Below, in pieces: positions 9,305 through 62,801 of a stretch of 64,000 nucleotides of DNA. Position 1 is the stretch's first letter. Each line of letters opens with the position of its first letter. A model generated the notes under the pieces. That model did not search any database and was not told where the DNA came from. It worked only from the letters and a program-made list of their open reading frames with translations. Made by a program: the position numbers and the translations under genes. Origin of the DNA: Allacma fusca (taxonomy: Eukaryota; Arthropoda; Collembola; Symphypleona; Sminthuridae); the NCBI GenBank assembly GCA_947179485.1, contig OX359246.1, forward strand, positions 1,364,001-1,428,000. The letters are read 5' to 3'.

Positions 9305-12026
9305 GCTTACTAAAGCCGAAATTAAATCGTTAATTAACATTCAAAGTTAATGAATTACATGAAGTAGCAGGATTATTACCAGTATTAATTATGTGAATTG
9401 CAATGAGTGCAGAAACGTTTTGCAGGCAATCAGGCCAATCAGGGACATCAACTCTGGCCAAACGTATTTACAAGAATTGTACAGTGCTCTCACTCATAAA
9501 GCTAAACTCATATATAATATCTACACCCATTGCTTATAATCTTTTATATGCAGTCATATAGTCACATGGATTTCACGTTTAAATGTAAACACTTTTTGGC
9601 ACACAATTCAATGTATTCCTTTTGTGAGACAGCAGTCATATCAAGGCAGTGTTGCACAGATCTTCATCGGAAATATTATTTGATTAGCAAATAGAGATCG
9701 ATACTTTTTTTCCAGTGTCACATGACACCCCCATGTTTTAAGGAATAGCTCTCATAAGTAATTAGACAAAATGATTTTTCCCTGGTCGGAAACGACACAA
9801 ATTTTGACATTCTTTTATCACGTAGAAGACATGTGTTAATTTGGGAATTCACTACAAAGCGAACTTTTTAAGTTTCGTATAATAAAGTACTATGTTCATT
9901 ATATATATAATTATGCCTATAGGAATTATTAATTTATAAATATCATACTAAGCGCTGTAAGTCAAAATCTAAAATGAATTACACATTTTGTATTTTTTTA
10001 ATATAGAAGGAGTCGAATGCATAGGCCTTGCAGCTTTAGATCATTGACAGTCAGAATAAAAATTACGTTAAGGGGTTCATTTTTATGAATCATTGTAGGT
10101 CCTGCCGCAACTATAGCAAAGATTGATGTATAGAAAAATCTATTTCCATGAGGGGCCGCGGTGAGTTGAATTCCTAAGGCGCTATTTAAGTGATCACCCT
10201 ATCACACAGCAGGGACGGGAATTCGAATTCAAATCGGAATTAGAATCGGAATTATATTCAAAAATTCGGGTATCCGAATCGATATTGGAATCGGAAAAAA
10301 ATTCATTAAGGTATTTGTATCCAAAATCGGATTCGAATAAAAACAAGAGTATTAGAATCGGTATTCGAATATTTTTTTATGAATTCCGATTCCCATAAAG
10401 TGTCAATTTCATTGGGGTTTATACTGCCACGTGCGAAGAAATGTTCATAGGAAGCATTTTTTAAAAGCCGCACACATAATATTATAAAATCCAAAAACAA
10501 AGTAACGAACGTTTGGCAAAGGAAAAGTATATATTTAGCTTAGAAACGCTTAATGCGTTATGTATCGCTTATATTTTTGCGATTAAATTGTTCCGTTGAA
10601 TAAATTCCCATTTTTTATAAGAATATCCGAAACGTATTTGAATCGGAATCCAAATTCCGGAAGTATTCAAATATATTAGAATCCGTATCGGAATTCAAAT
10701 TTTTAAGTATTAAAATAAGTAATTAAAATTGAAATCGAAATTAGAAAGTATTCGAATCCGAATTTAAATCCGTATGTTTCCGATATCCCGTCCCTGTCAC
10801 ACAGTTTCAGCACTGAAAGTTTATTACTGACTTACATAAAATTTATTAAATAAATTCAAAATTACCATCAAGGATGAAAGAGTTGCTTTATAACATTTAT
10901 TTCGAACTGCCGTAGTACGACGTAGAACGTGCCAATCAAATTTTGTCTCTTTTGGGTCGCACTGCTCTCGAACACAGGAACCCGTTCAAGAATTCGTCTC
11001 AATTTCCTGATTTCCTGCCATCTGTCTGCCGAGAGGATAAAAGTTTTTACTAAATAATTAAATTAGCCTGTGGATCTACCACCAAGATAATTTTGATAGA
11101 TACCTTGATGATTTTATCTTCCCAAGCATACAGGAACATATGTCCTGTGCCTACTCCTATTTGTATGGCCTCCGATGAAAGATATATTTTTCAACACGAT
11201 GTGAACATTTGTTTAGAAGAAATATATTGCTTATTATGTTTTCTTTTAATTGAAGCTTTATTGCAGTTTTGTTAGCAAAGAGTCAGGAAAAGGCTAACTC
11301 GTGAAAAGGAGGGTCCACAGTTGTACACCCCTGAACTTTTTTGGGGGAGTGGTAAACAAAGTCCCCCCTATTTCCGAGTACCTGCTTTTCAAAGCATCAA
11401 ATATAAGTTGTGTGCGATCCCATCATTCCAACATGTTCACATTAAGAAGCCAAAGATGTAATCATACTTCACGAAGTAACAACTAACATGTATTAATTAA
11501 AGAACTTTATGTAAAAAACAGCACTGCATATTAAATATTCATCAATTCATCGTTATCCATTTTCAGATGCCAAGTTTAAAGTTCAGTCCAAAACGTGCAC
11601 ATACATACCAATTTCCTCTAAACGAAGATACTGATTCAATACATTTGCTGGCAGTCTATATACATATAATTACATACTTATCTTAGGCCCATAGGAAGTT
11701 CACGGCCGTTTTCATACATGTGTCCAAACTTCTTAAGACGTTATTGAGATAAAATCTCAGCATTGTAACTTGTTATTTTCGTTCCAATTTATCCCATTTT
11801 TGTGTTATACTTCCAATAATATTGACCATCTCTGGACCAAGTTCAACAAAAGCTTCGTACTTAACATAATCACTTCAGTACTTTTTAGTTTCTCAACACA
11901 GAAAGACAAGAGCAAGCAAGCATTTTCATGCAAATTTGCTGGAAGTATTTATTTGTGCTGAAACAAATTGTGCCTAAAAACAATGACTGCAAATTTGAGC
12001 ATAAGTACGGAGAGATTAGCAACCTT
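9305..12026 (+). repeat. Upstream half of duplicated receptor unit B
   Basis: Non-coding. Bases 9308-9480 match 36391-36560 (unit D). Bases 10100-10205 and 10797-11000 match 23330-23640 (unit C) and 42460-42720 (unit E). Bases 11270-11480 match 23940-24140 and 43060-43270 (phrase GGCTAACTCGTGAAAAG). Bases 11640-12026 match the promoter-proximal part of all copies. A MITE interrupts it at 10210-10796. The unit continues at 19379 on the other side of the LTR element. Confidence 0.7.
10210..10796. mobile_element. hAT-like MITE, GAATCGGAATT motif cassette
   Basis: Inverted ends CAGGGACGGGA / TCCCGTCCCTG are flanked by a perfect 8-bp duplication TCACACAG (10202-10209 and 10797-10804), the target size of hAT transposons. 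Nearly all of both arms is made of reiterated, diverged GAATCGGAATT or GAATTCGAAT words in both orientations. There is no transposase ORF. It is absent from the matching place in units C and E, so it inserted after the unit duplicated. Confidence 0.9.
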
Positions 12027-12581
12027 TGTAACCTAGTACTATGCAAGATGTATATTTTATAATACTTTCGCTCACCTAATACTCGGTTACCGGAAGATGA
12101 TCACTTCAAAGGTCAGGCCAACAGGGATGCTCACTATTGCCAATTGTATTAAATAGCCGGGATGATCGCCAAAAATAAAGATTGTACGGATACAACTTCA
12201 CAGTTCCAAACTCAAGATGATTCTGATTTATTGCTTCTGGAGTTTCTCTTTTTATACTAATTTTTATCATTGGTTTTAAATATATTTAAATAATTATAAT
12301 TATAGTGGGTTTTTTAACAAAGGAAATATTTCCAGTAAAACAAGGGGTCGGTCATCGACTCATTGTTTTACATTAAAAGTTTTATTAAAATTAATCATTT
12401 GAGGTAGTGATCCTATTGTTTACAATAGGAGTGTCTTCATTTGGGTTTTCTCCTTCTCCAGTACAGTTATCTAAGTGGGGCACAGAAGGGGGTAATTAAG
12501 GGCCTTTGTGCTGGAATGTGTTTAGAGCCTTGATTTGGTTGGCATACGTTAAAGCATGCAGATGACCGACGCTTGGTTACA
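12027..12581 (-). repeat. 3' LTR of the Ty3/gypsy element
   Basis: 555 bp with TG...CA ends and 6-bp terminal inverted repeat TGTAAC/GTTACA. I see no difference from the 5' LTR. A polyadenylation signal AATAAA lies on the minus strand at 12232-12227. The last 38 codons of pol, including the stop at 12467, are inside this LTR. Confidence 0.95.
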
Positions 12582-15500
12582 ACATCCCCCGGTGGAAAAA
12601 GGACGCTTGTAACAACTTGTCGGTGGTATGGTCTTGTCTGTCTGTAAGATACGCCCCGATTAGGGCGTAAGTTGCGCTTATTTGGCGTAACCATGTCGGT
12701 TATCTGTTCAGTCGGTGGCCGATTTAGTTGAGGTGGACGAGATGATATCAGCTTAAGATTACATATATGTTGACGTCCATGATGTTGTTCGTCAGGGTGG
12801 CTAACCAATTCGTAAATATTACGACTTAATTCTTTTATAACACGATACGGTGTGGACCACAACGGGGCTAATTTACTCATGAATTTCTGGTCTGCAGATG
12901 AAATATGATGTAATCGAACCAAAACTAAGTCACCAGGTTGAAGTTTAATTTCTCTATGTTGTGAATTAAAATAAGTAGCTTGCTTTCGTTGGGCACCTTC
13001 TATTGATTGTTTGGCCCGATCCATGACTTGTTGCTGAATCAGAGCTTGCTGTCGTATATATACTTCTGGTCGGATGTCTTCTGGTGTGTCAGACATCGAA
13101 ATCACTTTGTCTAATGGTATGAGGAGCTTGCGACCAAGAAATAGTTCAGCAGGAGATACGCCTGTTGTGTCATTTGGTGTCGAACGTATGGCGAAACATA
13201 GGTCGTCGATGAAATCATCCCATCTAGAGTGGGTTGACTCGATGAAAGATCGTATCATTGTTTCTAGAACTTGGTTGTATCTTTCGGTCATATTTCCAGA
13301 AGGGAAATACGGAGGTGTGAGCATATGATGAATCTTCCATTTAGAGCAGTATTCTTCAAAAATCTTAGATGTGAAACATGATCCGTTGTCCGTTAAAATT
13401 GTAGATGGCCAATTAAATCGAGTAAACGTTTTATGTAGATGGTTAAGAATTTCCTTAGTGGTTCCTCGTCGCATTGGAAACGCTTCAATCCATTTGGAAA
13501 ATTTGTCGACTAAGACAAGTATAACTGTATTGCCTTTAGAGGATTTGACTAATGGTCCGATAAGATCTAAAGTTATAGTATGCCATGTCGGTTTAAGTTG
13601 GGCTGGTTCCATTTGGCCTGGTGGTCGTCGTCTTATAGGTTTCTGTTGTTGACAAATTTCACACGATCGGACATATGTTGAAACATCAGAGTGATAACCG
13701 GGCCACCAGAAACGATCACTAATTGTACGGAATAATTTGTCCTGCCCTAGATGACCAGCGTGAGGTTGATCATGGAGTTCGTGGAGAGCAAACGGGCGTA
13801 AACACAAGGGTAAATAAATTCGCCAAGTGCTAATGTCGGATTCATGAGATGTATCACGATAAATGATACCCTGCATCACTTTATATGGTTGATTTAATGC
13901 GTTTGATTTTCGAAAAATGGTTTGAATTTCTCCATCCTTTTGTTGTTCAGCGCGAATACGGTCCAGAGTAAGGTTGTCTACATTAGTGGAGTTTGTATAT
14001 GGTAGAAATGAATCCAAGTCATCAATATCATCGCCAAGTATATCTGCGCAAGGGCTGCGGCTAAGGGTATCAGGGACTATGTTTTCTTTTCCAGAAATAT
14101 GTTGAATTTGAAAATGATATTCTTGAAGGCGGAGTGCCCATCTGGCTAGTTTCTTGTTGTGATCAGTAAGTTTGTACATCCAAGTGAGGGCTTTGTTATC
14201 TGTCAAAAGTATAAATTCGCGGCCGTCAAGATATTCCCGGAATTTGTGTGTAGCAAATAAAAGAGCAAGAAGTTCTCGTTGCATGGCATCAAGATTTCTT
14301 TGGCTAGGATTAAAAGTCACACTGGCAAATGCAATAACATGGCGTTTATTATTATATTCTTGATATAATATTGCACCAGCTCCAATGAGAGAGGCATCAG
14401 TAGCAAGGATGAAAGGTTTACTGAAGTCGGGGTAGCTAAGTAATTTTCCACTAAGAAGAGTTTGCTTTAATTCTTCGAAGGCGGATTGTTCTTTGTTCGT
14501 CCATTTCCATGTGGTTGATTTTCTAGTTAAGTTGATGAGAGGATCGGCGATCGTGCTAAAATTTGGTATGAATTCTCGTAGCCAGCTGCACAATCCAACA
14601 AATCTACGGATAGCGTTGATATCTTTTGGTACTGGAAAATCGTGGATTGCTTTCAATTTGTCAGGGTTCATTTGTACGCCTTCCGAGTTTAAACGATAGC
14701 CAAGATAAATTAGTTCTTGCTTTCCAAACTCACATTTGTCTCGAGAGCATGTTAGTTTGGCTCTGCGTAGACGTTGACAAACTTGTCTTATGTGTGATAT
14801 GTGTTCAGCAAGTGTGTCAGAATAGATAATAATATCATCTTGGTAAGCGTCACAAAATTTCTCCAATATACCATTTAAGACTTTAACAATCAGTTTTTGA
14901 CAAACTGCTGCTCCATTCTTGACACCAAAAGGAGTTACATTGAATACATAGAATTTATTTCCTACTTGAAAACCTGTGTATTTTTTACTGTCAGGATGTA
15001 GTGGTACTTGATGGTAAAACTTCTTCAAATCAATTTTAGAGATATACTTTTTGGGTCCTATACGATTAATTATTTGACGGATTGTTGGCATATAAAATGA
15101 CACGGTACGAGTTTTGGAATTTAAGTATCGGAAATCGAGTACTGGTCGGAACGTCTGATTACTGCCTGGCTTGGGAACCAGGAAGCATGGACTAGCCCAG
15201 TCACTATCAGCTTCTTCAATGAGACCATCAGCTAAATATTTTGCAATCTCATCTTCTAGGATCTTTTGTTTAAAGGGTGTGGTACGATACGGTTTTTGTT
15301 TTCGGGGTATTTCGTCAGTTAATTCGATTTTATATTCCATTAAGTCAGTTCGCCCGATTCGTTCGGTAAAGACATCTGGAAATTCTTGAAGTACTGATTC
15401 AATTTGATCTAATCCGACTGGGTCAATAGAATCAAAAGCATTGACATGAGGACTTATTAATTTTTGGGGAGGGTCTGAAAAATATTGGAGCCATCCTTTG

Positions 15501-16090
15501 ATCTTTTTAAAGAAATCATCTCCAAGAAGCATGTCATTAGACAGATGCTCGAAAACAAAAAATGTTTGGGGAACTATGTGTGAAGGTGATAGTCTTAAGT
15601 CTAATGTAACTATAGCATATGGACGAAAACGTGCTCCAGATGCTGTAATAAAATCTGGACCAGTGTAACTTCTAAGAGGAAGGTCGCCTCCTAATTTATT
15701 AACTAAGTGTTTAGTAATTTCAGAAAATTTTGAACCTGAGTCTAATAATCCATGAACAGGTTCAGAGCCAATATTCAATAATAAATGAGGTAGTCCTCGG
15801 AACTTAGTAACGGGAAAGTATCTGTTATGTACCTTTGAAAAGAATTTTACATATTCATGTAGTCGTAATCCATTGGAGGGTAATCCTGATCCTCTTCGTA
15901 ATATTCCTCGTTCTGGAAGTCGTCCATCATTTGTTGAGGATACTCCTGGTGGCGATCGGATTCGGTCGATGGAGCGATATGATGCGACTGTCGATATTGA
16001 TGGGCTGGAGGACCAGCCCGCTGTCCGTTTCCCGAATACTGATGTCGATACATAGGTTGACGTTGTTGATACTGCTGTCGTGGCTGCCAC
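12467..16090 (-). CDS. pol: Pol polyprotein: protease, reverse transcriptase, RNase H, integrase
   Basis: Open frame of 1207 codons. It lies in the -1 frame relative to gag and is probably made as a Gag-Pol fusion from the slippery site at 16033-16027, so its first 20 or so codons may not be used. Visible in order: retropepsin active site LLDSGS; RT with DFRYLNSKT, KIDLKKFYHQV and catalytic YQDD (Gln where most gypsy elements have Val or Leu); RNase H with TDAS, RELLAL and LLTDNKAL; integrase zinc finger HX..H...CEIC; DDE core at TLDLIGP, ILTDNGS and TERYNQ; and a GPY/F-like tail (LAPLWSTPYRVIKEL). No chromodomain and no env-like ORF are seen downstream. The stop is inside the 3' LTR. Confidence 0.95.
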   Translation of the reverse strand: MAATTAVSTTSTYVSTSVFGKRTAGWSSSPSISTVASYRSIDRIRSPPGVSSTNDGRLPERGILRRGSGLPSNGLRLHEYVKFFSKVHNRYFPVTKFRGLPHLLLNIGSEPVHGLLDSGSKFSEITKHLVNKLGGDLPLRSYTGPDFITASGARFRPYAIVTLDLRLSPSHIVPQTFFVFEHLSNDMLLGDDFFKKIKGWLQYFSDPPQKLISPHVNAFDSIDPVGLDQIESVLQEFPDVFTERIGRTDLMEYKIELTDEIPRKQKPYRTTPFKQKILEDEIAKYLADGLIEEADSDWASPCFLVPKPGSNQTFRPVLDFRYLNSKTRTVSFYMPTIRQIINRIGPKKYISKIDLKKFYHQVPLHPDSKKYTGFQVGNKFYVFNVTPFGVKNGAAVCQKLIVKVLNGILEKFCDAYQDDIIIYSDTLAEHISHIRQVCQRLRRAKLTCSRDKCEFGKQELIYLGYRLNSEGVQMNPDKLKAIHDFPVPKDINAIRRFVGLCSWLREFIPNFSTIADPLINLTRKSTTWKWTNKEQSAFEELKQTLLSGKLLSYPDFSKPFILATDASLIGAGAILYQEYNNKRHVIAFASVTFNPSQRNLDAMQRELLALLFATHKFREYLDGREFILLTDNKALTWMYKLTDHNKKLARWALRLQEYHFQIQHISGKENIVPDTLSRSPCADILGDDIDDLDSFLPYTNSTNVDNLTLDRIRAEQQKDGEIQTIFRKSNALNQPYKVMQGIIYRDTSHESDISTWRIYLPLCLRPFALHELHDQPHAGHLGQDKLFRTISDRFWWPGYHSDVSTYVRSCEICQQQKPIRRRPPGQMEPAQLKPTWHTITLDLIGPLVKSSKGNTVILVLVDKFSKWIEAFPMRRGTTKEILNHLHKTFTRFNWPSTILTDNGSCFTSKIFEEYCSKWKIHHMLTPPYFPSGNMTERYNQVLETMIRSFIESTHSRWDDFIDDLCFAIRSTPNDTTGVSPAELFLGRKLLIPLDKVISMSDTPEDIRPEVYIRQQALIQQQVMDRAKQSIEGAQRKQATYFNSQHREIKLQPGDLVLVRLHHISSADQKFMSKLAPLWSTPYRVIKELSRNIYELVSHPDEQHHGRQHICNLKLISSRPPQLNRPPTEQITDMVTPNKRNLRPNRGVSYRQTRPYHRQVVTSVLFPPGDVVTKRRSSACFNVCQPNQGSKHIPAQRPLITPFCAPLR
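12582..12600 (-). other. Polypurine tract of the LTR element
   Basis: On the element strand the bases directly before the 3' LTR read CACCGGGGGATGT, a short purine-rich run in the position where plus-strand DNA synthesis is primed. It overlaps pol codons for PPGD. Confidence 0.6.
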
Positions 16091-17139
16091 TGCTGTGAAT
16101 GTCGTGGATATCCGTAATTTGGAGGCGGACGTACGTATCCATGATTGTACATTGGAGGATAATATTGGTACTGGTTTGGAGGTCGGTACCCATTATTGGT
16201 AGGTTGAACATTCTGTACCTTAGTTCTCGGTTCTCCGGCTTGACGTTTAGGACATTCCTTGGCAAAGTGATTTGGTTCACGGCAGTGATGACAAAAATAC
16301 GTCCCTTTCGGTCGTTTTTGCGTTCCTGGAGATTCAACTTTCTGAATTGTGGGCTCGGTGTCGCTGTCATCAGACTGGATCTCGGTGTTACATATAGCAG
16401 TTGATGTTGCTGCTTTAATATAAGGATGAGACATTGGAAGGTCTTTGCGTATGCGGCGTTCAATTTCAATTAACGCCTTCATGTTTAAACCTACATCTTG
16501 AGTTGCTCGTAGATGAATGCGAATTGCAGGATCAGAATTCTCAATTACACGTAGGACACGTGTTGCTTCATCTTTCTTCGATCTAAATCCGTTGAACATT
16601 TCGTAAACCTGCCAAGCATATTCTGCGAAATCTTCTTGAGGCTTTTGTTTTCGTTCAACAATTTTGATCAATCGTTCATCGTCAGTGATGGCTCCACCAA
16701 AATTGTCGATGAATTCAGTCTTGAATACAGTCCAAGTTTGAAAGGTCTTCTTGTGATTTGCTTCAAACCACGATTGAGCGGGTCCTTTAAGAGTGAATGT
16801 AACATTATTTAACCATGTGGCTTCTTTGATGTTGATATTCTTGAAATATTGGGTCAACTTTTGCAAGAATAATTGAGGATCTTCATCATGTTTGCCAGAA
16901 AATTGTGGTGGTTGAGGTTTCAACCAGTGGCTCAAATTTGCAGATCCAGGGTTGACTTTAAGTAGCTGAGTTTCAACCACAGCTAAACTCTGGGTTAGAG
17001 TGTCAATTTCAGCTTTTTGACACGTGATTAAATCTTCTTTATCCGTAATTTCCTTCTTAAGTGTTGTTTCCAAATCAGCTAATTTGTTTTGAAAAGCCTT
17101 TTCGATTTTGTCCAAATCGGCCTTTGTGATGGTCGTCAT
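15847..17139 (-). CDS. gag: Gag polyprotein with CCHC zinc knuckle
   Basis: 430 aa from ATG 17139. Residues 5-60 form a predicted coiled coil rich in Lys, Glu and Asp. A Ty3-type capsid region follows (LSHWLKPQPPQF, GPAQSWF, FKTEFIDNFGG, FAEYAWQVYEMF). One zinc knuckle CHHCREPNHFAKEC has the standard CX2CX4HX4C spacing. The C terminus is rich in Gln, Tyr, Pro and Arg. The last 244 nt overlap pol in a different frame, with a -1 frameshift signal at 16033-16002. It forms the particle and packages RNA. Confidence 0.93.
   Translation of the reverse strand: MTTITKADLDKIEKAFQNKLADLETTLKKEITDKEDLITCQKAEIDTLTQSLAVVETQLLKVNPGSANLSHWLKPQPPQFSGKHDEDPQLFLQKLTQYFKNINIKEATWLNNVTFTLKGPAQSWFEANHKKTFQTWTVFKTEFIDNFGGAITDDERLIKIVERKQKPQEDFAEYAWQVYEMFNGFRSKKDEATRVLRVIENSDPAIRIHLRATQDVGLNMKALIEIERRIRKDLPMSHPYIKAATSTAICNTEIQSDDSDTEPTIQKVESPGTQKRPKGTYFCHHCREPNHFAKECPKRQAGEPRTKVQNVQPTNNGYRPPNQYQYYPPMYNHGYVRPPPNYGYPRHSQQWQPRQQYQQRQPMYRHQYSGNGQRAGPPAHQYRQSHHIAPSTESDRHQEYPQQMMDDFQNEEYYEEDQDYPPMDYDYMNM
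16002..16033 (-). promoter_or_regulatory. Programmed -1 ribosomal frameshift signal (gag to pol)
   Basis: On the element strand the heptamer GGGAAAC (16033-16027) lies in gag frame as G GGA AAC, the canonical X XXY YYZ form. After a 7-nt spacer comes a perfect 7-bp stem GGGCTGG / CCAGCCC with loop TCCT (16019-16002). A -1 slip there enters the pol frame and reads GKRTAGW, exactly as found in the pol ORF. Heptamer, spacer and stem all match known signals. Confidence 0.85.
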
Positions 17140-17902
17140 TGTAGGGCAGTTGGATGTCTCAAAAATCGATGGAGAGCGCGTGCAGGATCAGCACGGAGAT
17201 GATCAAAACCTAATTTTGATTTTCATTAATAATATTATATTTAACTAATTTGGGAACTTAAGTTGTGGACTAGGCCTGCTTCTTGAGGCATGACTAGATA
17301 TTTGTGGTCATTTTGGGGGTATACCCTACTATAGAATCTTAACTTAATCGTATGAAAGCACCTTGTAATATTTGGATGGCCCCTGCCATAAGAGCCTATG
17401 TTAAAATTTTATTTTTCGAAATTTTGAAAATTTTTATGGCCTGGGACACTATGTATATGTCTTATACATGGGCTATGACCTGCTTGCTCCGTAAGGCCCA
17501 AGCACTTTTTATGACCTTTGGCACTGGTCCCATGTTTCTACGATGCCCGGTTCTCGATTCGGGGCCATTTTGTCACGGGTGGGTAAAATTCCGATTTTCG
17601 GATTATAGCTTTTTAATGTCATATATGGACACCTATGACTTGTGGTACCTTTTATTTAATGTAGCTAACAATGCAACCATTGTTATGGACCTATTACTGC
17701 TTAAACATGGGCATCTATCTTATAAAAAAAATAATTAATAATAATTTATATGAGGTGAGTAATACTTCTAATTTAGGTTCTGACTGGAAATAATTAATTA
17801 ATCTAATTGACCAAACTAATATAATTGTACCAGGATTTTTGTTGACATTTATTACACATTAACATCAATCATTTACTAACAAAAAATCAACCATTTTGAT
17901 TA
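17140..17902. other. Spacer between extra ORF and gag in the LTR element
   Basis: About 760 bp without a sense-strand ORF. It probably serves as the gag leader (packaging or splice signals). An antisense open frame of 128 codons occupies 17352-17738 on the plus strand. It has some hydrophobic stretches but no recognisable domain, and I do not call it a gene. Confidence 0.5.
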
Positions 17903-18823: not shown

Positions 18824-19378
18824 TGTAACCTAGTACTATGCAAGATGTATATTTTATAATACTTTCGCTCACCTAATACTCGGTTACCGGAAGATGATCA
18901 CTTCAAAGGTCAGGCCAACAGGGATGCTCACTATTGCCAATTGTATTAAATAGCCGGGATGATCGCCAAAAATAAAGATTGTACGGATACAACTTCACAG
19001 TTCCAAACTCAAGATGATTCTGATTTATTGCTTCTGGAGTTTCTCTTTTTATACTAATTTTTATCATTGGTTTTAAATATATTTAAATAATTATAATTAT
19101 AGTGGGTTTTTTAACAAAGGAAATATTTCCAGTAAAACAAGGGGTCGGTCATCGACTCATTGTTTTACATTAAAAGTTTTATTAAAATTAATCATTTGAG
19201 GTAGTGATCCTATTGTTTACAATAGGAGTGTCTTCATTTGGGTTTTCTCCTTCTCCAGTACAGTTATCTAAGTGGGGCACAGAAGGGGGTAATTAAGGGC
19301 CTTTGTGCTGGAATGTGTTTAGAGCCTTGATTTGGTTGGCATACGTTAAAGCATGCAGATGACCGACGCTTGGTTACA
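18824..19378 (-). repeat. 5' LTR of the Ty3/gypsy element
   Basis: 555 bp, read as identical to the 3' LTR over its whole length. It should hold the element promoter, firing to the left. Its right end also contains, on the plus strand, an ATG at 19353 that is in frame with receptor B downstream. Confidence 0.95.
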
Positions 19379-49502: not shown

Positions 49503-49899
49503 AGCGACACACTTTTGAAATGATAAAAAAAATTCCAGAAAACTTTACTGGAGAGTTGAAATGGGCTTTGTGTAAGAGCATATCATGAAAATTGATATGG
49601 TTTGGGAACTAGATAATAGTTGGTATTGAAGGAAATAAAACCTTTAGTTCAGCCAAAATTACGCATTACGTGTAGCATTATGTTGGAAATTGGTTTACTC
49701 TAAAATTGTAAATTGGATTAATTATTTATAATATTATATATATTATGTAGGACACATATTTATGTATTTGTGCTTTCGTTATTTTCAAGAAAATAGATGC
49801 TACTTCAGTTTATGCAGAGAAATTTGAGTAGTTTTTATAATAATTATAGTATTATAATTGTTTTTTAATTACAGTAAATTCTAATAAATTAATGAACTT

Positions 49900-50605
49900 C
49901 AGATCCACCCCGAGGTTTTCTGTCTCAATGGAGGACGTACGCAAGGCAAGAGATTCTCCTTGTGAGCAATTTCCCTCCCATTTTCTTTGTCCTTCTGCGT
50001 TGGGATTGTCTACCCAGCTATATTTTTGCTCAATCCCTCAGCAGCTTGTTTTTGGTATTCAATTATCAATCCATCGTCCAATCAACTACATTTGCTTCTT
50101 GTGTTTTTAACAATGGAAGTTTTTATTCTGACTATATTTGCTATAGGGACAACCATTACAATTTATTTAAACTCCAACTGTCAATCCAAAATTTCTATCA
50201 GGTTTTCTCAACCGTTGCCCTGTCATTCAAAATTGTGGCACTTACAATAGTCATTCTTTGCCTTTTTAAGGCAGTCAAAATTTACCAAACGGTCCCAATT
50301 CTGGCTCTGGTTGAGTTGCTACTAGCGCCAGATGTTAATGTGATGTTCCTTACTCTCTACGATCAAGCCTTATTTGTCCCATCGAGGATCAATGGGCTCA
50401 TAAGAGAGTCGTTCTTTTGACGTCGACTAAAATACGGGCGGGGGAAAATTTTGACAGGATGGTCCAGCAAACCTTGAGATCCATTCGTCCTTGCGGAATT
50501 AAACTGGGTCAATTCCATATGTTTGAGAGGGCATCAACACCGAATTTCGTCAATTTCGTAAACAGAAATTTACAAGGGATGTTGGCAGTTTTTCGTAATA
50601 TTTGA
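49900..50605 (+). pseudogene. Chemoreceptor exons 2-3, fused and frameshifted
   Basis: Homologous to 56640-57533. The exon 2 part reads YPAIFLLNPSAACFWYSIINP and FTMEVFILTIFAIGTTITIYLN in one frame. It is joined directly to exon 3 (CQSKISI..., then VALSFKIVALTIVILCLFKAVKIYQTVPILALVELLLAPD in another frame) with loss of the exon 2 end, the intron and the exon 3 start. A TGA follows NGLIRESFF at 50418. The last block (LRSIRPCGIKLGQF...FRNI) is open again to 50605. It is a clear pseudogene. Confidence 0.8.
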
Positions 50606-51588: not shown

Positions 51589-53942
51589 TTAATTATATCT
51601 GTGGGGCACTCCGGGGTCGGTCTGATTGGAAGTCCCGTAATTTCCGCTTGGGTAATTATAAAATTGAGGATTTTCTGCCTGCTGTCCTAATGGATTTTGA
51701 GGGGGATTGATCACTTCAAAATATGGAGGGGGATTTTCGTAATACTGGTTGGGCCCCAGAGGTACATTTGAAAATGGTTGCTGATATTGTTGATTAAAAC
51801 CAATTGAGGGCTTTGAAGTGAGTGGTTGATACGCTCCTCCGGCGCCATCTACTACACCGCCAGTTGGATCTGTGACAATTTCCACACGAATGGCGAATGG
51901 TATTTGAGCTTCGATAGGGACTGGGTTCCCACGTTGGACCAGGAACTGGTTTTCTCCTTCAAGGATACGTTTATGAGGCCGCAGGAAGTATAAAATTCCG
52001 TCCAGGATTGTCAAAATCTATGTCGGGGAAAAATCCCCCGGATAAAATTTGTGGGCATTGTTTACGGGACTTATCATTCTTATGTATTATTCAAAAATAT
52101 TGTTTAAAGAGAGCCTGCGATTTTCTTTTTAAATATGGAGGGACTTTTAAACTATATTTGGAAGGAATTATTTTCTGTAATTCTGGTCTCTACCATTCTC
52201 TGGTGGTAACCAAAGCTGGGCAAAAAAATTGCGTATCCTAAATCCTACATACATTTTATAATTTACAAAGAGCATACATTTTGCATACATAAATTTGTCC
52301 AGAAATGCAGTCATACATATATGCATAATTACATATAAATAAATTTATGCATAAATTTATGTATACGTGCCTATAAAAGTGTATATTGAACGTTCTGAAC
52401 CTTTATAAAACTAACGAAGCATGGCTTTGCGCGTGTATATTGTTAATTAGTTAAGTTTAAAATTATTAATTTCTAGTTTGGTAGGTTTCAGTCAAAACGT
52501 ATAGAAATCGTTCGCATTGCAGTAGGAAATAATAAATGCGATTACACCAATAGACACAGACCGTGCCAAGAAAATACAGATGGAGCTCGCTGAACATACA
52601 TGGTGCATACAGCATACATACCTAAATCTATCGGTCTTTTAAACATACATACTCTTACATACAGTATTCATACCATACATATTTCATTCATTTTTTTAGT
52701 GAAAACATGCAGCCTGCATAAATTGCATACAAATATTCGGAAAATGTGCAAACATACATAAAAAACTGCGTATATTTATGCATAAATGTAGGATATGTGC
52801 CCAGCTTTGCCTGTAACCCTAATAATTTAAAATTTTCAATTTTGCTTCCAATAAATGAAACAACCAACATACCCCATAAATTTGAACTTAAAAACACAGA
52901 CGTTTTTTAAACCCAGATAATTTTAGAAGGCTTTTTCAGATAAAATAAAATTATTCAAAATTTTGGAATATAATTAGATATACTCACCCCAGACAGTAAT
53001 TTGGGCACTGATAATTGACAACTTTGTAACGACATGTGCTCATACCCATGACATACTCTGGATTTTGAAATGGATCTCTCACTCACAACCATTAAAAACC
53101 CAATGATGAGCAATATGATGCCTTGTAGAAGTCTCAAAATTCGAACCTGTTAAAATTTAAATACAAATTCAGATTTTAGAAAAATGTAAATTTCACATGA
53201 TACAGCTTTTTCTTTTTATAATTTGTAAACAAAATTTGAATTAGCATATTTGTAATGCTCTAGGAGTTTTTTCTAATTATTCTATGTAAATATCTGATTT
53301 ACTTTTTCGTAATAAAATTTTTCTTTTAATTAAAAACAACAAATTTAGTTAAAAAATCAGACCAAAGCATTGTGCACAAAAACTGTGCATTGAATCACAA
53401 ACCAATTTGTAACTCCTTTCCATGATACATGTGAGAACGAGAAGCCATCCAATTGACAAGGCCAGAAACAACGGGATGAATGTCAAAAATGTGACATCAA
53501 TTGGCTCAAAGAACCGAAAGCGGTTGTAGCTGAAGGCGTAACCTTCAAGCCCCAACATTGCCAGCTCCAAGATCTAAAAAAGGTTACACATTTTAAGTAG
53601 CATAATGCCGCTAATTTCTTTCAAATTTACTTTCAATCATCCCAAGCAACTGCCAATTTTATTTAAAAAATTGCAAATAATAAAGAAGCCTATTTCCTCG
53701 CGTCCAAAATTAAATACTTGAGGCAAACTTGTCCAACAGATTATAAGGTACCTTAGCTTTCCCATCATTATTCATTTAAATTATCATGAAATCAAAAATT
53801 ACAAATATGCCAGTAAGCATAAGCTCCTAAATATCTTAGATAAAGATTATATAATTTGAGGTATTTATCGGGACAACTTCCAGATTTACAGATATAAAGG
53901 TAAACTTACCAGATTTAATGGGACAATAATATTCAAAGACAT
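51589..53942 (-). CDS. Four-TM (MARVEL-like) membrane protein with PPPY tail, four exons
   Basis: Exons, minus strand: 53942-53910, 53573-53403, 53146-52988, 52017-51589, all joined in phase 0 with GT-AG borders, giving 263 aa. TM1 spans exons 1-2 (IIVPLNLILELAMLGLEGY). TM2 is LTFIPLFLALSIGWLLVLTCI. TM3 is LLQGIILLIIGFLMVVS, followed by an extracellular loop with two Cys (RVCHGYEH, LQSCQL). TM4 is LSGILTILDGILYFL. The cytosolic tail of about 120 residues is rich in Pro, Gln, Asn and Tyr and contains PPPYFEV, a PPxY WW-domain ligand. The four-helix topology with short N terminus resembles MARVEL or tetraspan junction-type proteins; this is inference from topology. A MITE sits in intron 3. A broken copy lies at 31860-32660 on the other strand. 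Confidence 0.75.
52211..52809. mobile_element. hAT-like MITE, CATACATA motif cassette, in an intron
   Basis: 599 bp, ends CAAAGCTGGGCA / TGCCCAGCTTTG. Flanks GTGGTAAC and CCTGTAAC share 5 of 8 bases, a decayed target duplication. The interior is mostly ATACATA/TATGTATG words. It lies in intron 3 of the four-TM gene. Confidence 0.8.
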
Positions 53943-56150: not shown

Positions 56151-57533
56151 ATGCTAACTAAGCATGAACTTAGATTTAATCATAAAACATTGGAAATCCT
56201 ATCGGCAATGCGTCTATGCCCTTTTGAATTGGGCAAGGATGGCAGGTGGATGTATCGCCAGGGCTCCACATTGTTTTCTATTTTCTACTCAATTTCATGC
56301 ATTCATGTCATATTTCTGTCAGTTCGACTCATTCAGCAAGCTTATAATCCAAACTGGAGCCAAATTTTTGATATAGTGGAACAAGTCTATCTTACAGTAT
56401 GTTACTTTTTCTCATTTTACTGTACAACAGTGACCTGTCGATTAGAGCCAAATCTTTTCTGTGCAATATTGAACCAAAACTTGAGTGCAATCCCGGAGGG
56501 TACGTCTATACAATTTACACGCATGTTGTTTCTATTAGGATTTCGAAGATCTATCTGTATTATTAAAATGAAGTCTATATTAGTGTATAGTCAAAGTTGT
56601 TCCTAAATTTGAATGCAGCTATTTATTGGATTCATTTAGGTTCATCCAGAAGTTTGTTTTCCCATATGAAGACCTACACTAAGCAAGAGATCATCGTGAT
56701 ATTCTTACCATTTTTCATTTACAGCTGCGTTGAGATTTTTTACCCAACAATATTTTTGCTACATCATTCACCAAATTGTTTCTGGTATTCTATTATTAAT
56801 CCCAAGTGGAAACACTTCTCTGTACTTGTGCTGTTTTCAACGATTGAAGCCTCACTTTTTACAATTTTCACTGTTGGGGCAACCCTTTCCATTTACTTAC
56901 AATTGCTATTTTTCCAAAACATATGCCACACTCTCAAGACCGAAGTGTCTAAATTGAAGTAAGGTTTTTTTTTTAATGGAATCCTATTATTTTCAATTTA
57001 AGCCTAATTTGACAACTAATTTCTGAATTTATTTCTAAAGTAACTCGGGCAGTAGTGCTGCAGAAGCTGATATAACATCTGCAATTAAATCATGCCGGAA
57101 ACTCCAACTGTCAGTTCAAAATTTCAATCAAGTATTCTCAAACATCGCATTGACATTTAAAGTTACGGCACTAACATTAGCCATACTTTGCCTTTATGTG
57201 GCTATCAAATTGTACGAAACGGCCCCGTTTCTAGCTCTGGTGGAGTTATTAATAGCGGCAGACGGTAATATTATGTTTCTGACGCTCTATGATCAAGCCT
57301 TCTTTGTCCCTTCAAGGATTAATGGGCTCAAGAGAGCTGTGTTGTTTGAGTCGGGTAAGGTACAGGCGGGGGAAAATTTCCACAGGATGGTGCATCAAAG
57401 CTTGAGATCAATCCGTCCTTGTGGAATTAAAGCCGGACAGTTCCATGTGTTTGAGAGGGCATCAACACCGAATTTTGTCAATTTTGTAAAACGAAGTTTG
57501 CAAGGCCTGTTGGTAGGTTTTCATAATATTTGA
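56151..57533 (+). CDS. 7TM chemoreceptor-like protein, three exons, intact
   Basis: Exons 56151-56499, 56640-56958 and 57041-57533, with GTACGT and GTAAGG donors, AG acceptors and consistent phases (1 and 2). The product is 386 aa, in the usual range for gustatory/odorant receptor superfamily proteins. Hydrophobic helices: SIFYSISCIHVIFLSV, VYLTVCYFFSFYC, IIVIFLPFFIYSCVEIF, LFTIFTVGATLSIYL, LTLAILCLYVAIKLY and a short C-terminal one after NFVNFV. No GPCR motifs are present, as expected for this superfamily. The C terminus (IRPCGIKAGQFHVFERAS, then FVNFV) is the best-conserved block among the four or five copies in this window. The TYhhhhhQF signature of insect gustatory receptors is not seen, so the subfamily is uncertain. 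This is the only undamaged copy. Confidence 0.75.
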
Positions 57534-58008: not shown

Positions 58009-59618
58009 CAGGGATGTCAATTTCCAATTTTGTGATTACAAATTACAATTAACGATTACTTCAAAAACAAAATGAATTTGTAATTACAATTGATGATTAA
58101 TTGAATTGTAACTACTAATTAGTTATTACGATTAACGATCACTTTAAATATAATTTGCATTGATGATTACAATTAACGATTACTTTAAAAATAATTATTA
58201 TTGAAGATAACAATTAACGATTACTTTAAAAATAATTATTATTGAAGATAACAATTAACGATTACTTTAAAAATAAATGTTACTGATGATTACAATTAAC
58301 AATTACTTTAAAAATAATTGTCATTGATGATTACAATTATCGATTACTCTAAAAATAATTGTCATTGATGATTACAATTAATGATTACTCTGAAAATAAT
58401 TGTCATTGATGATTACAATTAACGATTACTTTAAAAATTATTTTCATTGATGATTTCGATTAACGATTATTTGTAAAAAATATTTAATTTTGTATTATAA
58501 TTAATGGATATCTTTTAAAAAATATTTAATTTTCTATTATAATTAACGGATATCCATTAAAAAATTAGCAAATTTTTGATTACAACTAATAATTGCCTTT
58601 TTATAAAATATATAATTGACAATTACAATTAGTGGCTCTTTTTAAAAAATTGGTACTTGTGACTTTTGTTAAAAGCTGAACAGAGCAAAGCAATCTTTGC
58701 GGGCGGTGAGACGTCACCCGTATTTTTTATATGGTATAGATTACATTTTTGTATTTTTAAAATAAATCTTAGGTTCAATTTGTGAGACTTCGTTGTATTC
58801 CACAAAAAATAATAGCTACGAACTTGTAGTAAGTAGTAACTGAATATGATATAACAAAATAATAATAATTGCTTTATATGGTTACCAGCATCTTTTTATT
58901 GTAAATTATGTATTAAAAAGTTAATAGTGTACAAGTTTTCGGCCACGAGTCCAACGTCGTCAGGCGAGACAAATTATTGAGAAAATTTTGCCCCGTTTCA
59001 AATCCCCTAATATTTATTAGGATTAATGATTACTTTGGGGAAGATGTGATTGATGATTACGATTACAAAATACTTTCTGCTAAAATATAATTTACGATTA
59101 CAATGACAAATTACTTTTCAGTAAAGTTTCAGTTACGATTACGATTAAAAATTACTTTTCAACTAAGTTTCAGTTACGATTACAATTACAAATTACTTTT
59201 CAGTAAAGTTTCAGTTACGATTACAATTAAAAATTACTTTTCAGTAAAGTTTCAGTTACGATTACAATTACAAATTACTTTTCAGTAAAGTTTTAGTTAC
59301 GATTACAATTACAAATTACTTTTCAGTAAAGTTTCAGTTACGATTACAATTACTTTTTGATGAATTTTCATAAACTATTACAATTACAAATTACTTTTTA
59401 CTTAAACTTCCAATTTCAATTTCAATTAACGATTAATGGCTCTTAATTTAATAATTGGCGATTAAAATGGCGATGATTGATTTTCAAAAACGGTTAATTG
59501 ATGATTACAAGTATAATGATTATTTCATAAAATCCAAAGTTTACTAAATTAACGATTGATGATTAATAATTAGTAATCGTTAATCATTAATCGTGATTAT
59601 TAATCGTTGACATCCCTG
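58009..59618. mobile_element. hAT-like MITE, GATTACAATTAACGATTAC motif cassette
   Basis: 1610 bp, ends CAGGGATGTCAA / TTGACATCCCTG. Flanks GATATACC (58001-58008) and GATAAATC (59619-59626) agree at 6 of 8 bases. The left arm holds about ten tandem units of roughly 38-45 bp with ATTACAATTAACGATTACTT. The right arm has five or six units of about 41 bp with CAGTTACGATTACAATTAC. It splits exon 1 of a chemoreceptor pseudogene. Confidence 0.9.
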
Positions 59619-59982
59619 GATAAATCGCAAGGGTTCCATAGGGCTTTTGGTTTTTTACTTATTGCTATGCACTCATATCATATTTGTTTTCATTCGACCA
59701 CTTCAACAAGCGTACAATACAAACTAGAGCCACATTTTTGAAGTAGTGGAACACTATTTTAGTGTTTTTTCTTAGAATTTTATTGTACAACAGATGAACC
59801 TGCCAATGGAGCCTTATTTGTTCAGGGCCATATTGAACCGATCTTCGAGTACAAACCCGGAGGGTATACTTTTGCAATTTAATCGCTCAATTTTGTGTTT
59901 CGAAAATTGATTATTCAAATTAGTTCTAATAGTCAAAGTTACTTTAATTTTTGAGATCAATTATGTAATGAACTTACTTAGT

Positions 59983-60223
59983 TCCAACATGTTTGAACAA
60001 TTAAATTCAAATACAGTTCAAGTCAAGTTATGTGTCCTACTTGAATGTCAATGTATTATCAAGTTCAAGTTCTATGAAATAAACTTGAAAATCGTGTACT
60101 TGAGAAAAGTACAAGTTGCTTGAGAAACTTGATTCATGGTGCAAGTGCAAGTATACTTTGTTTCGAAAATTTTTAAAGGTCAAGTCAAGTCTTCTAAAAT
60201 AACTTGACTTCAGGGCAGCTCTG
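59983..60223. mobile_element. Partial hAT-like element, CAAGTTCAAGT motif
   Basis: Reiterated CAAGTTCAAGTC words end at CAGGGCAGCTCTG (60211-60223), a hAT-type terminus when read outward (CAGAGCTGCCC). The exon 2 homology of the chemoreceptor starts on the next base. The left end is missing. Confidence 0.55.
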
Positions 60224-60424
60224 TTCCAGAGGCATGATTTCCCATTTGAAAACATACTTTGTAGGCAAGAGATGCTTATAAGTGTATCCATTTTTAAAAC
60301 ATGCTGATATACATACATATATCAAAAACATTCACACAAATATGCTGATACTTTACTTCAACTGCTGCTCGAAGTAATTCCATGTTTGCTTTAACATCTC
60401 AATATCCATGATGATTAACTAAGG

Positions 60425-61330
60425 TTCTCAACGGATCGAATATATCCGAACAAATAGGGAACGGATAGGATAAAAATGTTGATTATCTTTATCCGAACAG
60501 TTCGTTTCATCCGGAAAAAATGACGGATAGGATCGGATGCTAATGCTTGTATCATCTGAAGGGATCGGATGACGACCTTTTGTTTTTTCGGATAAAACGT
60601 CAGATATCCTCGGATATCTGCGGATATGGGTAACTGTTAAAAGCATGGCCATCGCGCGCTCTGTGGTTATCAATAAACAGTCAGACTAACGTGACGATTT
60701 CGATACGTTTTTGTGGCTTAGACTCATTGTCAGCTCATACATCTTTTTTGCAACACTAAACTCAAACCTCACGTTAATGAGTTCGCCATAAAACGTTTTC
60801 GATAGAAATTTGGAAATAAATTGATGCGTCTCTTTAACCTATAGAAGAATCATATCAACTTAACGCTCGTTACAAGTTTCAATAAGCTAGTTAGCTATTT
60901 ATTAGTTTAGTTTTAAATAATTAGTTGTAGCACTTGATATGCTCAATGGAAGTTTCTGGTCCAGAAAAAACTATTTTCGAGGAATGTTCTCAATCGAGTT
61001 CAGAAGAATCTCAGCCGAAAAAGTGAAGTATGGAACCATTTTGCGATAGATGAAGATGGCATGCCAGCCAAATTCAATTATTGTAAATCGTAAGATTACT
61101 CATTTATAATTTTTTAGACTTTTTTTACTTATAATTTTGGTTGACATTACATCTCCATTATAAATATATTTTAGAAAAATCTTGTGAATAATATTGCTTT
61201 AGAGCATGTTGTCTCATCTCCTTTCAATGTACAAGTTAATTTTTGTAAAAATACTTTTTTATGAAATCTATAAATTAACCGGTATTACCCGGTTACAGTA
61301 TCCGCCGGATATTTGTGTTAACAGTAAAGC
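60425..61330 (+). mobile_element. hAT relic with BED-finger transposase N terminus
   Basis: The left part (60430-60630) is dense in GGATAGGATCGGAT/ATCCGAAC words, and the right part ends near TATCCGCCGGATATTTG (61300-61316). Between them, ATG 60948 opens a frame MEVSGPEKTIFEECSQSSSEE that hits TGA at about 61024. One base away the frame continues SEVWNHFAIDEDGMPAKFNYCKS, a BED zinc finger whose first Cys is replaced by Phe. It links the motif-cassette pattern to a coding hAT element. Confidence 0.6.
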
Positions 61331-61819
61331 CACATACTATAAGTCTTAAGTGGATTTGCATTTTGTTTGGTTCTAATTGGCCAACACAAACGGCAGTAAT
61401 CGTCATTTAACCATGCTAACCTAGGCCGGGTATTCTGTTACCAGAATGGGCCCTAAAAATTAATTTAAGCTCCTGGTATTATGTGGAACACATTTGCTTC
61501 GTCGGTTTTGCCTTAAACAAGTATTTCAGAAATATAGCCTGAGGGGACACCGTTGTGACGTCACAGGGTCATCCCGGGACGTCGCTTATGGGAATCCTAC
61601 ACGAGGTTACACATGTCTGGTCCTAACACATCACAAATTGGGACACTTCAGGTGAGGAATACGTTTGAGGATGTAAGCGATCAAGTTGTGAGATCAATAC
61701 GTCCATGTGGAATTAAAGTTGGCCAATTCCATGTGTTTGACAGGGCATTAACACCAAATTTTGTAAATTTTGTAAAACGATGTTAGCAAGGAATGTTAGT
61801 AACTTTTCGTAGTCCATGA

Positions 61820-62398
61820 TTGTTTGTAATTATTTATGTTCTGAAATGTTATAAAAACGCTTGAAAATAAATAACATGTACGTAATCCCCAGCATACAAT
61901 ATGTATACGGGTTACTCAAAATTGAATTGAAAACAGTCATTTAATGCTAACGTTTTTATGGGAATTAATAAAACGGAAGATCCAACTCTAACTACAGCGC
62001 AAGCTTTCATTTGGAGTGACTGTTGTAAATTCTGTAAATCGTCGTGCTTAAAACTATTTTTCTAATTTTTTTAATCCAAGTTCGGGTTCAATTGGTTCAA
62101 TTAACCCGAACTTGGAATTAACTTGGATTTCAAGTACTTTGGACCTTACAACTTTGTAGTATGAAGTCAAAACACTCCAACGGGTGGAGCTAAGATTTTC
62201 AATTTCCGTCGTTTTATTAAATTCAGATTTGGGTTCACTCATGGTTTTCCCCTTGTGTTACAGTCTCACCGGACAATTTACTTCATCAGTTTTTCAAAAA
62301 TTAGAAAAATAGTTTTAAGCATGACGATTTACAGAATACACAACAGTCTTTCCAAATGAAAGTGAGCTCCAGCTTCTGTACATATCTCTGCAGGCATG
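61820..62398. other. Intergenic
   Basis: A short palindrome CCAAGTTCGGGTTCAA ... TTAACCCGAACTTGG lies at 62080-62115, built of the same words as the CAAGTTCAAGT cluster. No gene was seen. Confidence 0.4.
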
Positions 62399-62406
62399 GT
62401 TTCTAG

Positions 62407-62801
62407 TACGGATGCCAATGGTCTGGTCCGGACCATTTATAATGGTTCGTTATTGGTCTGGTCCCAGATTTGTGTGGTCTGGTCCGGTCTGATTCAACAC
62501 TTGGACCACACCACATACAATTTGTTCAGCTTCATGACCGGACCAGACCTGATCACAGGACCATGGTCTCAAACGTATGCAAAATAAAAATTTGTTACCG
62601 AAATCCCATGGAACAAATTAAAACCGACATTTCTGGGGATAAAAGAAGGATTTGACGGGATGAACTGAATATTTAATTGCTCGCACTGGTTTTGTGGACC
62701 ATGGTCCGATCGTCCCATGGTCTTTGGTTTGGTTTGGTCCGAACGACTGGGTCAAACCAGTTTCATAAAATCTGGATCAGACCAGACCATGGGCATCACT
62801 A
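62407..62801. mobile_element. hAT-like MITE, GGTCTGGTCC motif cassette
   Basis: 395 bp. Ends TACGGATGCCAATGGTCTGG and TAGTGATGCCCATGGTCTGG (read outward) form an inverted repeat with a few differences. A perfect 8-bp target duplication GTTTCTAG flanks it (62399-62406 and 62802-62809). The interior is GGTCTGGTCCGG words on the left and GGACCAGACC words on the right. Confidence 0.92.

Follow-up and report, generated by a model that had tools for sequence, protein, structure and literature searches.

Miniature hAT elements in a springtail genome probably retain the lineage-specific subterminal repeat arrays of autonomous transposons

Transposases of the hAT type need long ends and bind short subterminal repeats. 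The end requirement described for Ac, Tol2 and Hermes is close to the roughly 200 bp over which the arrays reported here extend (PMC10368747). As described in the same source, mutation of the subterminal repeats (STRs) of Tol2 lowers excision, Hermes keeps about 70% of its activity after mutation of the inner sites of its left end, and binding of the BED domain to the right-end repeats of Hermes was not seen (PMC10368747). A report on maize states that 314 of 331 Ds1 elements are without three or more hexamers and that some of these Ds1 are mobile; the Ds-l elements with hexamers that it describes as tested were immobile (PMC3260210). Subterminal repeats are, by these published results, not always needed (PMC10368747, PMC3260210). 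The binding sites of hAT elements are described as varying from transposon to transposon (PMC3143072), and the work on long hAT ends and STRs, as represented in these sources, covers a small number of elements, drawn from various species.

We analysed a window of 64,000 nucleotides from the genome of the springtail Allacma fusca. A preliminary description of this DNA had named at least six complete elements of hAT type with inverted ends and mostly 8-bp target duplications, and our results partly bear this out (Table 1). In all six (E1-E6), 11-13 of 14 tip bases pair; the flanking duplications are exact in E1, E2, E3 and E6 and imperfect in E4 and E5. The ends are constant in the genome at large, with 434 copies of the E2 left end (0 in a reversed control), 240 of the E5 left end and 241 of the E4 right end (control 0 for each). 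Target sites of hAT elements follow the pattern nTnnnnAn. At 30 of 30 fetched E2 loci, the window copy counted, the 8-bp duplications are perfect and mutually different; position 2 is T in 23 of them and position 7 is A in 16. The E2 insertion interrupts an exon of a gene that is 7TM-like, and the reading frame is intact once the insert and one duplication are removed. Of the stop-to-stop frames of at least 90 aa listed for the window, one of 99 aa falls within E3 (47207-47506, minus strand), and E1, E2, E4, E5 and E6 contain none. We take the six named elements for transposons of the hAT type, probably non-autonomous ones.

Table 1. Elements of the window, with positions counted from its first letter
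Element	Description	Positions	Strand	Word	Ends	Target duplication
E1	non-autonomous hAT element	10210-10796	+	GAATCGGAATT	CAGGGACGGG	8/8, TCACACAG
E2	non-autonomous hAT element	44495-45470	+	CGGAAC	TAGAGCTTCC	8/8, GTTGGGAT
E3	non-autonomous hAT element	46746-47659	+	TATAGGC/TAGGAAGG	CAAAGATGGGCC	8/8, CTCTGCCC
E4	non-autonomous hAT element	52211-52809	-	CATACATA	CAAAGCTGGGCA	5/8
E5	non-autonomous hAT element	58009-59618	+	GATTACAATTA	CAGGGATGTCAA	6/8
E6	hAT-type element	62407-62801	+	GGTCTGGTCC	TACGGATGCC/TAGTGATGCC	8/8 flanks, GTTTCTAG
E7	fragment	59993-60223	-	ACTTGA/CAAGTC	tip CAGAGCTGCCCTG at right, left end missing	
E8	left part of autonomous hAT family	60420-61279	+	GGATAGGATCGGAT	tip TAAGGTTCTCAACGGAT	

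The boundaries were not equally easy to recover. A blind scan of the window for CA- or TA-starting 11-bp ends with 8-bp duplications gave 6 matches, against 0, 0, 0, 0, 1, 0, 0, 0, 1 and 0 in ten shuffled windows; these were E1, E2, E3 and three pairs that we took for chance, and the scan did not recover E4, E5 or E6. E6 was recovered solely by a relaxed scan whose matches are largely chance (21, with 3-12 in ten shuffles). Reading E1 and E3 as one-armed fragments was overturned by the right ends and duplications found for both, and E3 starts at 46745-46746 in 37 of its 39 other scored copies. The 39 other scored copies of E7 start at 59986-60018 and stop at 60207-60239. E6 is nested in a larger amplified repeat (62120-62910): sequence beyond it is common on both sides in 27 of 30 loci, the window included, and on at least one side in 29. 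The exceptions are L067, which shares E6 alone, bordered on both sides by CTTCCTAT; L059, which shares only the left flank; and L052, which shares little, on the right side only. E5 was taken as 58010-59620 in the word-density, partner and orientation analyses, and the E2 boundaries were one base off in partner scoring and in a survey of 40 copies.

Each element is marked by a short word of its own, of which the arms were thought to consist almost wholly. Compared with the remaining window, the enrichment of these words is about 8-fold or higher (CGGAAC occurs 20 times in E2 with 0.21 expected, CATACAT 9 times in E4 with 0.20 expected), as counted for words picked post hoc and, in E1 and E3, on the left arm only. 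However, the arrays take up only about 200 bp per end, and the centres of E1-E4 hold little of them. When the window was cut into 255 tiles of 250 bp and scanned blind to the words, 26 tiles were flagged, 17 at the places previously named and 9 elsewhere; the scan touched every named place, partial members included, except one at 60.4 kb. That exception, E8, is not a MITE: it represents the left portion of an autonomous family, of which complete copies exist at other loci. The stretch 60417-61279 is matched by four further loci with 82-83% identity; two of them have a transposase C-terminus and identical 8-bp flanks (ATTGTACT and ATTTGGAT), and these two autonomous copies carry the word at both ends. 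A stretch near 61010-61090 looks BED-like by eye, and a Pfam search of the window copy gave no BED domain.

Arrays of the same extent occur beside transposase genes. From 860 hAT candidates in the genome, 150 were scored and 68 loci, chosen by protein match and blind to the word, were cut at their 3' ends. A plain 7-mer count on 550-bp flanks separated these poorly from tiles taken at random across the genome (at least 5 copies in 23 of 68 and 22 of 120; at least 7 copies in 11 of 68 and 12 of 120), presumably because the genome is strewn with such arrays, and we therefore adopted a mismatch-tolerant score compared with shuffles of the same sequence. By this score 36 of the 68 flanks are more self-similar in their words than any of 100 shuffles, and 32 fail. 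Among the 36, L096 and L099 are plain tandem repeats and L083 holds a nested insertion. For 23 autonomous arms, a set that favours clear cases in that the tips were visible by eye, density could be followed from the tip (L003 was dropped, its tip lying outside the stretch, and near-identical loci, among them L004, L006, L082, L084, L088, L094 and L111, were left out). Word coverage in these arms is 0.54-0.67 over the first 200 bp and 0.15-0.21 beyond 250 bp (shuffled, 0.07-0.11), and the commonest 6-mer has 3-14 exact copies within the first 300 bp. Among autonomous elements, left arms were observed in the E8 family only. Array length differs among copies in some families: L130 has a duplicated stretch of array, and in many E4 copies the left arm is interrupted by extra sequence.

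Some of the miniatures can be paired with such a transposase. The clearest case is E4, whose left arm is 85% identical to the autonomous 3' arm of L089 along 200 bp that start at the tip (E 1.6e-62; word-sharing z 7.8); on the presumed transposase-sense strand its word reads TATGTATG. A pattern search for the left end of L089 found none nearby among the 100 matches listed, all exact. The right arm of E1 has a weaker match in the 3' arm of L108, with 65% identity along the first 171 bp (E 4e-6), a word-sharing z of 12.0 and a runner-up at 3.3. E8 scores highest with L092 (z 17.8), followed by L111, L094, L079, L093, L112 and L098. The assignments of E3 and E7 are tentative and lean partly on words or tips judged by eye: E3 scores best with L123 (z 6.3), which carries a different tip, and then with L002, L071, L072 and L084 (z 3.7-3.1), and the best partners of E7, L125 and L103, are weak (z 3.7 and 3.0, the former below the best score of E2). 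Among the 68 cut flanks there is no convincing autonomous partner for E2 (best L098 and L083, z 4.9 each), E5 (best L105, z 3.6) or E6. For E5, an unsystematic look by eye at the 100 of 240 end matches listed found no end less than 5 kb away from any of the 150 transposase matches. L083 had the best word score for E6 (z 15.9) and was dropped by eye for an apparent extra GGTCTGGTCC insertion just 3' of its stop codon; L084, with a near-identical transposase, has a different 3' arm. Where the words can be traced, through L089, L108 and the autonomous copies of E8, each belongs to a different transposase lineage, as the preliminary description proposed. Since the word of some miniatures recurs in a full-length, enzyme-encoding relative, we think that the family-specific word is most likely a tag by which each enzyme recognises its own DNA.

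The same comparison bears on the earlier proposal that the arrays are runaway expansions of binding sites. On a fuller version of this idea, MITEs are parasites that gained many more sites than the autonomous partners have and so win the competition for transposase. E5 would fit, with tandem arrays of a 41-bp unit (10.6 copies on the left and 7.3 on the right by TRF) and arms of about 600 bp, and the variable array length of L130 and the split left arms of E4 are also as expected. However, the ten arms of the other five elements have a coverage of 0.43-0.51 in the first 200 bp, no denser than the 23 autonomous arms, and fade at an equal distance; the arms of E4 and E1 are, moreover, colinear with autonomous arms. 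Because arrays of about 200 bp are found in autonomous and miniature elements alike, runaway expansion is unsupported as a general account and we consider it unlikely. E5 alone perhaps fits array expansion.

Word sharing follows the relatedness of the enzymes. Among 50 non-redundant transposases, word sharing between 3' flanks correlates with identity of the transposase C-terminus (Mantel r 0.298, 0 of 5000 permutations). The correlation could also arise from shared descent of the arms, with no selection. When flank pairs that align over at least 60 bp are removed, z exceeds 3 in 26% of 46 pairs at 60-70% transposase identity, 10% of 96 at 50-60%, 12% of 16 at 70-85% and 0-2% below 50%, and these non-aligning pairs speak in part against shared descent. 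They also count against the view that the arrays are ordinary satellites or microsatellites, expanded by slippage within elements otherwise unrelated and without a part in recognition. Slippage would produce the direct orientation of the words, and likewise the tandem structure of E5, L007, L096 and L099, but the words fade on average 200-250 bp from the tip, mostly form no tandem of fixed period as judged by eye, and track transposase relatedness even where arms do not align; we regard this explanation as quite improbable. Nor do the arrays behave as unrelated satellites that merely abut the ends: the whole of E2, arrays included, is spanned at 40 of 40 scored places, and the array of E4 shows homology with an autonomous end that starts right at the tip.

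The orientation of the words was expected to be inverted between the two arms. Instead, direct sharing exceeds inverted in five of seven arm comparisons (E1, E3, E4, E5 and E8), and the two are roughly balanced in E2 and E6; inverted sharing is also above shuffles in most elements. In 21 of 23 autonomous arms the G-rich strand is the transposase-sense strand (mean GC skew 0.25). A strand bias of this kind, together with a mostly direct orientation, is what would be set by transcription and not by the ends, if the arrays served the RNA or transcription of the element, as a 3' UTR or promoter, and not transposase binding. Yet the arrays are retained in MITEs, which probably lack a transposase gene, and the E8 family carries them in its left arm as well. 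Whole flanks, too, have a weaker G skew (58 of 68 positive, mean 0.08), so the skew need not be a property of the arrays. We give a transcriptional role little chance of being the explanation.

We conclude that the MITEs are probably the two cis-acting ends of autonomous hATs, with inherited arrays of putative transposase-recognition sites. Each end would consist of a short terminal inverted repeat followed by about 200 bp rich in a lineage-specific word. The word may be the binding site of the N-terminal, BED-type DNA-binding domain of the transposase, and several sites per end could aid capture of the ends by a multimeric enzyme. Selection for self-recognition would make word and transposase diverge in concert, and internal deletion would leave MITEs with the recognition part alone. 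More tentatively, and with some doubt, we speculate that this one genome may hold many parallel, mutually exclusive transposase-DNA codes, each hAT lineage with its own word (among those read by eye are GAAGGAAGG, GAGTAAGTA and GAGTACGAG) over about 200 bp per end, the G-rich strand being transposase-sense, with stepwise co-divergence such as GGATAGGATCGGAT to GGATCGGATCGG to CGGTTCGGAT.

If this is true, the codes would amount to a natural evolution experiment in which transposase and site change together and families turn orthogonal, and the mostly direct arrays would give the element a polarity not described in the published account of Hermes. The words of many lineages are legible in raw sequence and the MITEs would be natural minimal substrates, and co-divergence of transposase and site is thus directly testable. 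Array words would also help to match MITE families to transposases, and springtail lineages could yield orthogonal hAT tools for the laboratory.

The preliminary description had not recognised these elements as a general class already described. Subterminal repeats of hATs are in fact published, as are non-autonomous elements reduced to little more than these (PMC10368747, PMC3143072, PMC3260210), and the best reading is that the springtail arrays are this known feature in a dense and diverse form. Maize Ac/Ds, a close parallel, is described with 11-bp ends, 8-bp target duplications, about 200 bp per end for full activity and multiple copies of one hexamer, AAACGG, bound by the transposase; Ds2 retains about 200 bp at either end, with filler besides, and what Ds1 has in common with Ac is limited to the ends and a few hexamers (PMC3260210). 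Whereas that system is described as one family with one word, the springtail genome has, by eye, more than ten, in arrays that make up about half or more of the arm. The housefly element Hermes has, like the springtail elements, repeats concentrated near the tips; it needs about 220 bp per end in cells, and several BED domains of its octameric transposase are described as bound to the left end (PMC10368747). Its site is 4 bp (AAGT/C), whereas springtail words are 6-14 bp as judged by eye, and its repeats are antisense in the left end, the first excepted, and sense in the right, whereas springtail words are more often direct (PMC10368747). Herves of Anopheles has a private subterminal word, CGATTCAT, at both ends, bound by Herves transposase; the account of it describes neither a parallel set of lineages nor MITEs (PMC3143072), both of which the springtail appears to offer within one genome.

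Many hAT elements of Allacma fusca share an anatomy in which a short word, different from lineage to lineage, recurs along the arms (about the first 200 bp of each end). Some arms in the window are homologous to arms beside transposase genes, and arms and transposases co-vary. The words listed in the preliminary description are indeed enriched, about 8-fold or more above their level in the remaining window sequence. A word-blind score, based on 8-mers shared with one mismatch or none and set against dinucleotide shuffles, cannot separate word arrays from other repeats; it flagged 26 of 255 window tiles, 17 of them at places already named in that description. It also flagged 18 of 120 tiles beside insertions of the non-autonomous element E2 elsewhere in the genome, so sequence made of repeated words is common outside the window.

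Elements and side features in the window (flanks compared at base level)
Feature	Position	Observation
E1	10210-10796	8-bp flanks identical
E2	44495-45470	8-bp flanks identical
E3	46746-47659	8-bp flanks identical
E4	52211-52809	flanks agree at 5/8 positions
E5	58009-59618	flanks agree at 6/8 positions
E6	62407-62801	8-bp flanks identical
E7 (fragment)	59993-60223	
E8 (left part of an autonomous family)	60420-61279	
Repeat beside E8	61282-61620	separate; >30 scored copies, about 85-94% identical, inverted pairs among them
7TM-like frames	1346-2302, 19350-20285, 24670-25599, 38453-38842, 40049-40753, 43890-45800	alike by eye, clustered; one broken by E2
Long frames, minus strand	12467-17187	resemble LTR-retrotransposon gag and pol by eye
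Two similar frames	49896-50420, 57039-57533	end LYDQA(L/F)FVPSRINGL; membrane receptors possible

The genome searched comprises 392,743,791 bp in 91 contigs, with the window at C8:1364001-1428000. A blind scan of the window for 11-bp ends that pair up and are flanked by 8-bp duplications recovered E1, E2, E3 and three other pairs, which we take for chance (ten shuffles gave 0-1); E4, E5 and E6 were absent from this strict list. E2 is the clearest family: its left end occurs 434 times across the genome and never in the reversed control, and all 40 places scored, out of 578 candidates, span the element, missing at most the first two bases. Perfect, mutually different 8-bp duplications flank all 30 loci fetched, window copy included; position 2 is T in 23 of these duplications, and position 7 is A in 16. 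In the window E2 breaks an exon of a 7TM-like gene, and removal of the insert and one duplication yields an unbroken frame resembling the paralogue at 19350-20285. For E6, sequence beyond the element is common to the loci on both sides in 27 of 30 (window included) and on at least one side in 29, and thus E6 is carried by a larger repeat, 62120-62910. One locus, L067, with CTTCCTAT on each side of E6, looks like an independent insertion. A second stretch, from about 63957, some 1 kb beyond this repeat, is also common to most of the 30 loci.

We drew 68 hAT transposase loci from 150 listed PF05699 matches (860 candidates): the best eight, and 60 chosen from the match table before their DNA was seen, with apparent duplicates skipped and some long open frames favoured in the last batch. 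Each stretch comprised the C-terminal end of the transposase and the following 550-1500 bp. Words were repeated beyond all 100 shuffles in the 3' flanks of 36 loci, and inspection by eye shows many of these arrays stopping at tips of hAT type (CATCACTG or CATCTCTG, for example). The other 32 flanks fell below the shuffle test; four of them (L002, L069, L072, L089) have an array visible by eye yet missed by the score, and in others inspection showed none. The flanks of L096 and L099 contain plain tandem repeats instead of scattered words. L083 has, by eye, a GGTCTGGTCC-type insertion directly 3' of its stop codon; at that place L084, a near-identical transposase, carries another arm. A palindrome, CAAGCATGCTTG, recurs across hAT loci of one transposase group (four copies in L001, one in L095), by eye outside coding stretches and perhaps intronic near 3' splice sites; it was not found in the window.

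Among 50 non-redundant transposases, C-terminal domain identity correlates with word sharing between 3' flanks (Mantel r 0.298, reached by 0 of 5000 permutations). When all 68 loci were compared pairwise, minus flank pairs aligning over at least 60 bp, z exceeded 3 in 0-2% of pairs below 50% identity, 10% of 96 at 50-60%, 26% of 46 at 60-70%, 12% of 16 at 70-85%, and neither of the two pairs with higher identity. Within the E8 clade the word appears by eye to change in steps, from GGATAGGATCGGAT (L079, L092-L094, L111) to GGATCGGATCGG (L098) and CGGTTCGGAT (L101, L113). Shared descent adds to the correlation, and selection may contribute.

Several window elements could be paired with particular transposases by word. 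E1 has one outstanding partner, L108 (z 12.0; next 3.3), and E4 has L089 (7.8) followed by its relative L121 (5.8). Aligned from the tip inwards, E4 matches L089 strongly (85% over 200 bp, E 1.6e-62) and E1 matches L108 more weakly (65% over 171 bp, E 4e-6); direct alignment gave no further match for the arms of the five remaining elements. The best-scoring candidates for E3 are L123 (z 6.3), L002 (3.7), L071 (3.6), L072 (3.4) and L084 (3.1), and its tip, CAAAGATGGGC, is that of L072 and L084 and differs from that of L123. Those of E7, L125 (3.7) and L103 (3.0), are tentative, with z no better than that of partners rejected because word and tip disagree by eye (L098 and L083 for E2, 4.9 each; L105 for E5, 3.6). 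L083 was also rejected for E6 (15.9), as a nested insertion. The seven highest partners of E8 (17.8 to 10.9) all come from one transposase clade. Four other loci match E8 at 82-83%. Two of them precede the transposase loci L079 and L092 by about 1.8 kb in the same orientation, and in each case the 8 bp beyond one tip recur beyond the other (ATTGTACT and ATTTGGAT). These left ends, transposases and flanks together indicate autonomous elements about 3.3 kb long that carry the word at each end, as judged from their outer parts. At a third locus, upstream of L094 (L130; tip outside the fetched piece), a stretch of the array is duplicated, so array length varies among copies.

The arms of MITEs had been proposed to be runaway expansions of transposase binding sites, and their density argues against this. 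In the 23 autonomous 3' arms whose tip could be seen (about eight clades, not independent), the share of bases lying in repeated words in successive 50-bp bins is 0.54, 0.60, 0.67, 0.64, then 0.33 and 0.21, with 0.15 at 300-400 bp and 0.19 at 400-500 bp (letter-shuffled, 0.07-0.11). Ten MITE arms (five elements, without E5) give 0.49, 0.51, 0.51, 0.43, then 0.24, 0.12, 0.12 and 0.05 in matching bins, and are thus neither denser nor further-reaching. Only E5, with 41-bp tandem copies and arms of about 600 bp, appears expanded.

The suggestion that the word is inverted between arms does not describe the main pattern. Direct sharing prevails over inverted in E1 (232/151), E3 (137/40), E4 (229/106), E5 (2228/709) and E8 (304/139, left arm against the L079 right arm), and the two are nearly equal in E2 (194/215) and E6 (38/45); inverted sharing nevertheless exceeds all 200 shuffles in E1, E2, E4, E5 and E8. 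Within single arms, direct pairs outnumber inverted ones in 21 of 23 autonomous arms. The transposase-sense strand is G-rich in 21 of 23 arms (mean GC skew 0.25), and the inner flank has a skew of 0.11 (positive in 15 of 18); since whole flanks are also mildly G-rich (58 of 68, mean 0.08), part of the arm skew is not particular to the arrays.

We postulate, as the most likely mechanism, a private word, an N-terminal finger and internal deletion. A hAT transposase would read its word through its N-terminal DNA-binding finger, and multiple copies per end would boost capture by the multimeric protein. Word and finger would drift together as lineages part, and internal deletion would leave two arms, sufficient for a MITE. 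Published results speak against this: Hermes with mutated inner left-end sites retains about 70% activity, and binding of its right-end repeats was not observed (PMC10368747); in maize, most Ds1 elements carry at most two hexamers, some of these being mobile all the same (PMC3260210).

Subterminal repeats bound by hAT transposases and varying by element are already published: they occur in most hAT transposons according to the Hermes paper (PMC10368747), and maize Ds elements are hAT derivatives that retain such ends (PMC3260210). Excerpts of the literature matches listed, with subscription journals mostly outside their scope, included no survey of word arrays over many hAT lineages in one genome. 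The springtail arrays are best read as a variation on these known repeats, not a wholly new class. Their arrangement is unlike that described for Hermes, in which all left-end repeats but the first are antisense and those of the right end are sense, and their reach of about 200 bp is near the end length reported there as needed by Ac, Tol2 and Hermes (PMC10368747, PMC3260210).
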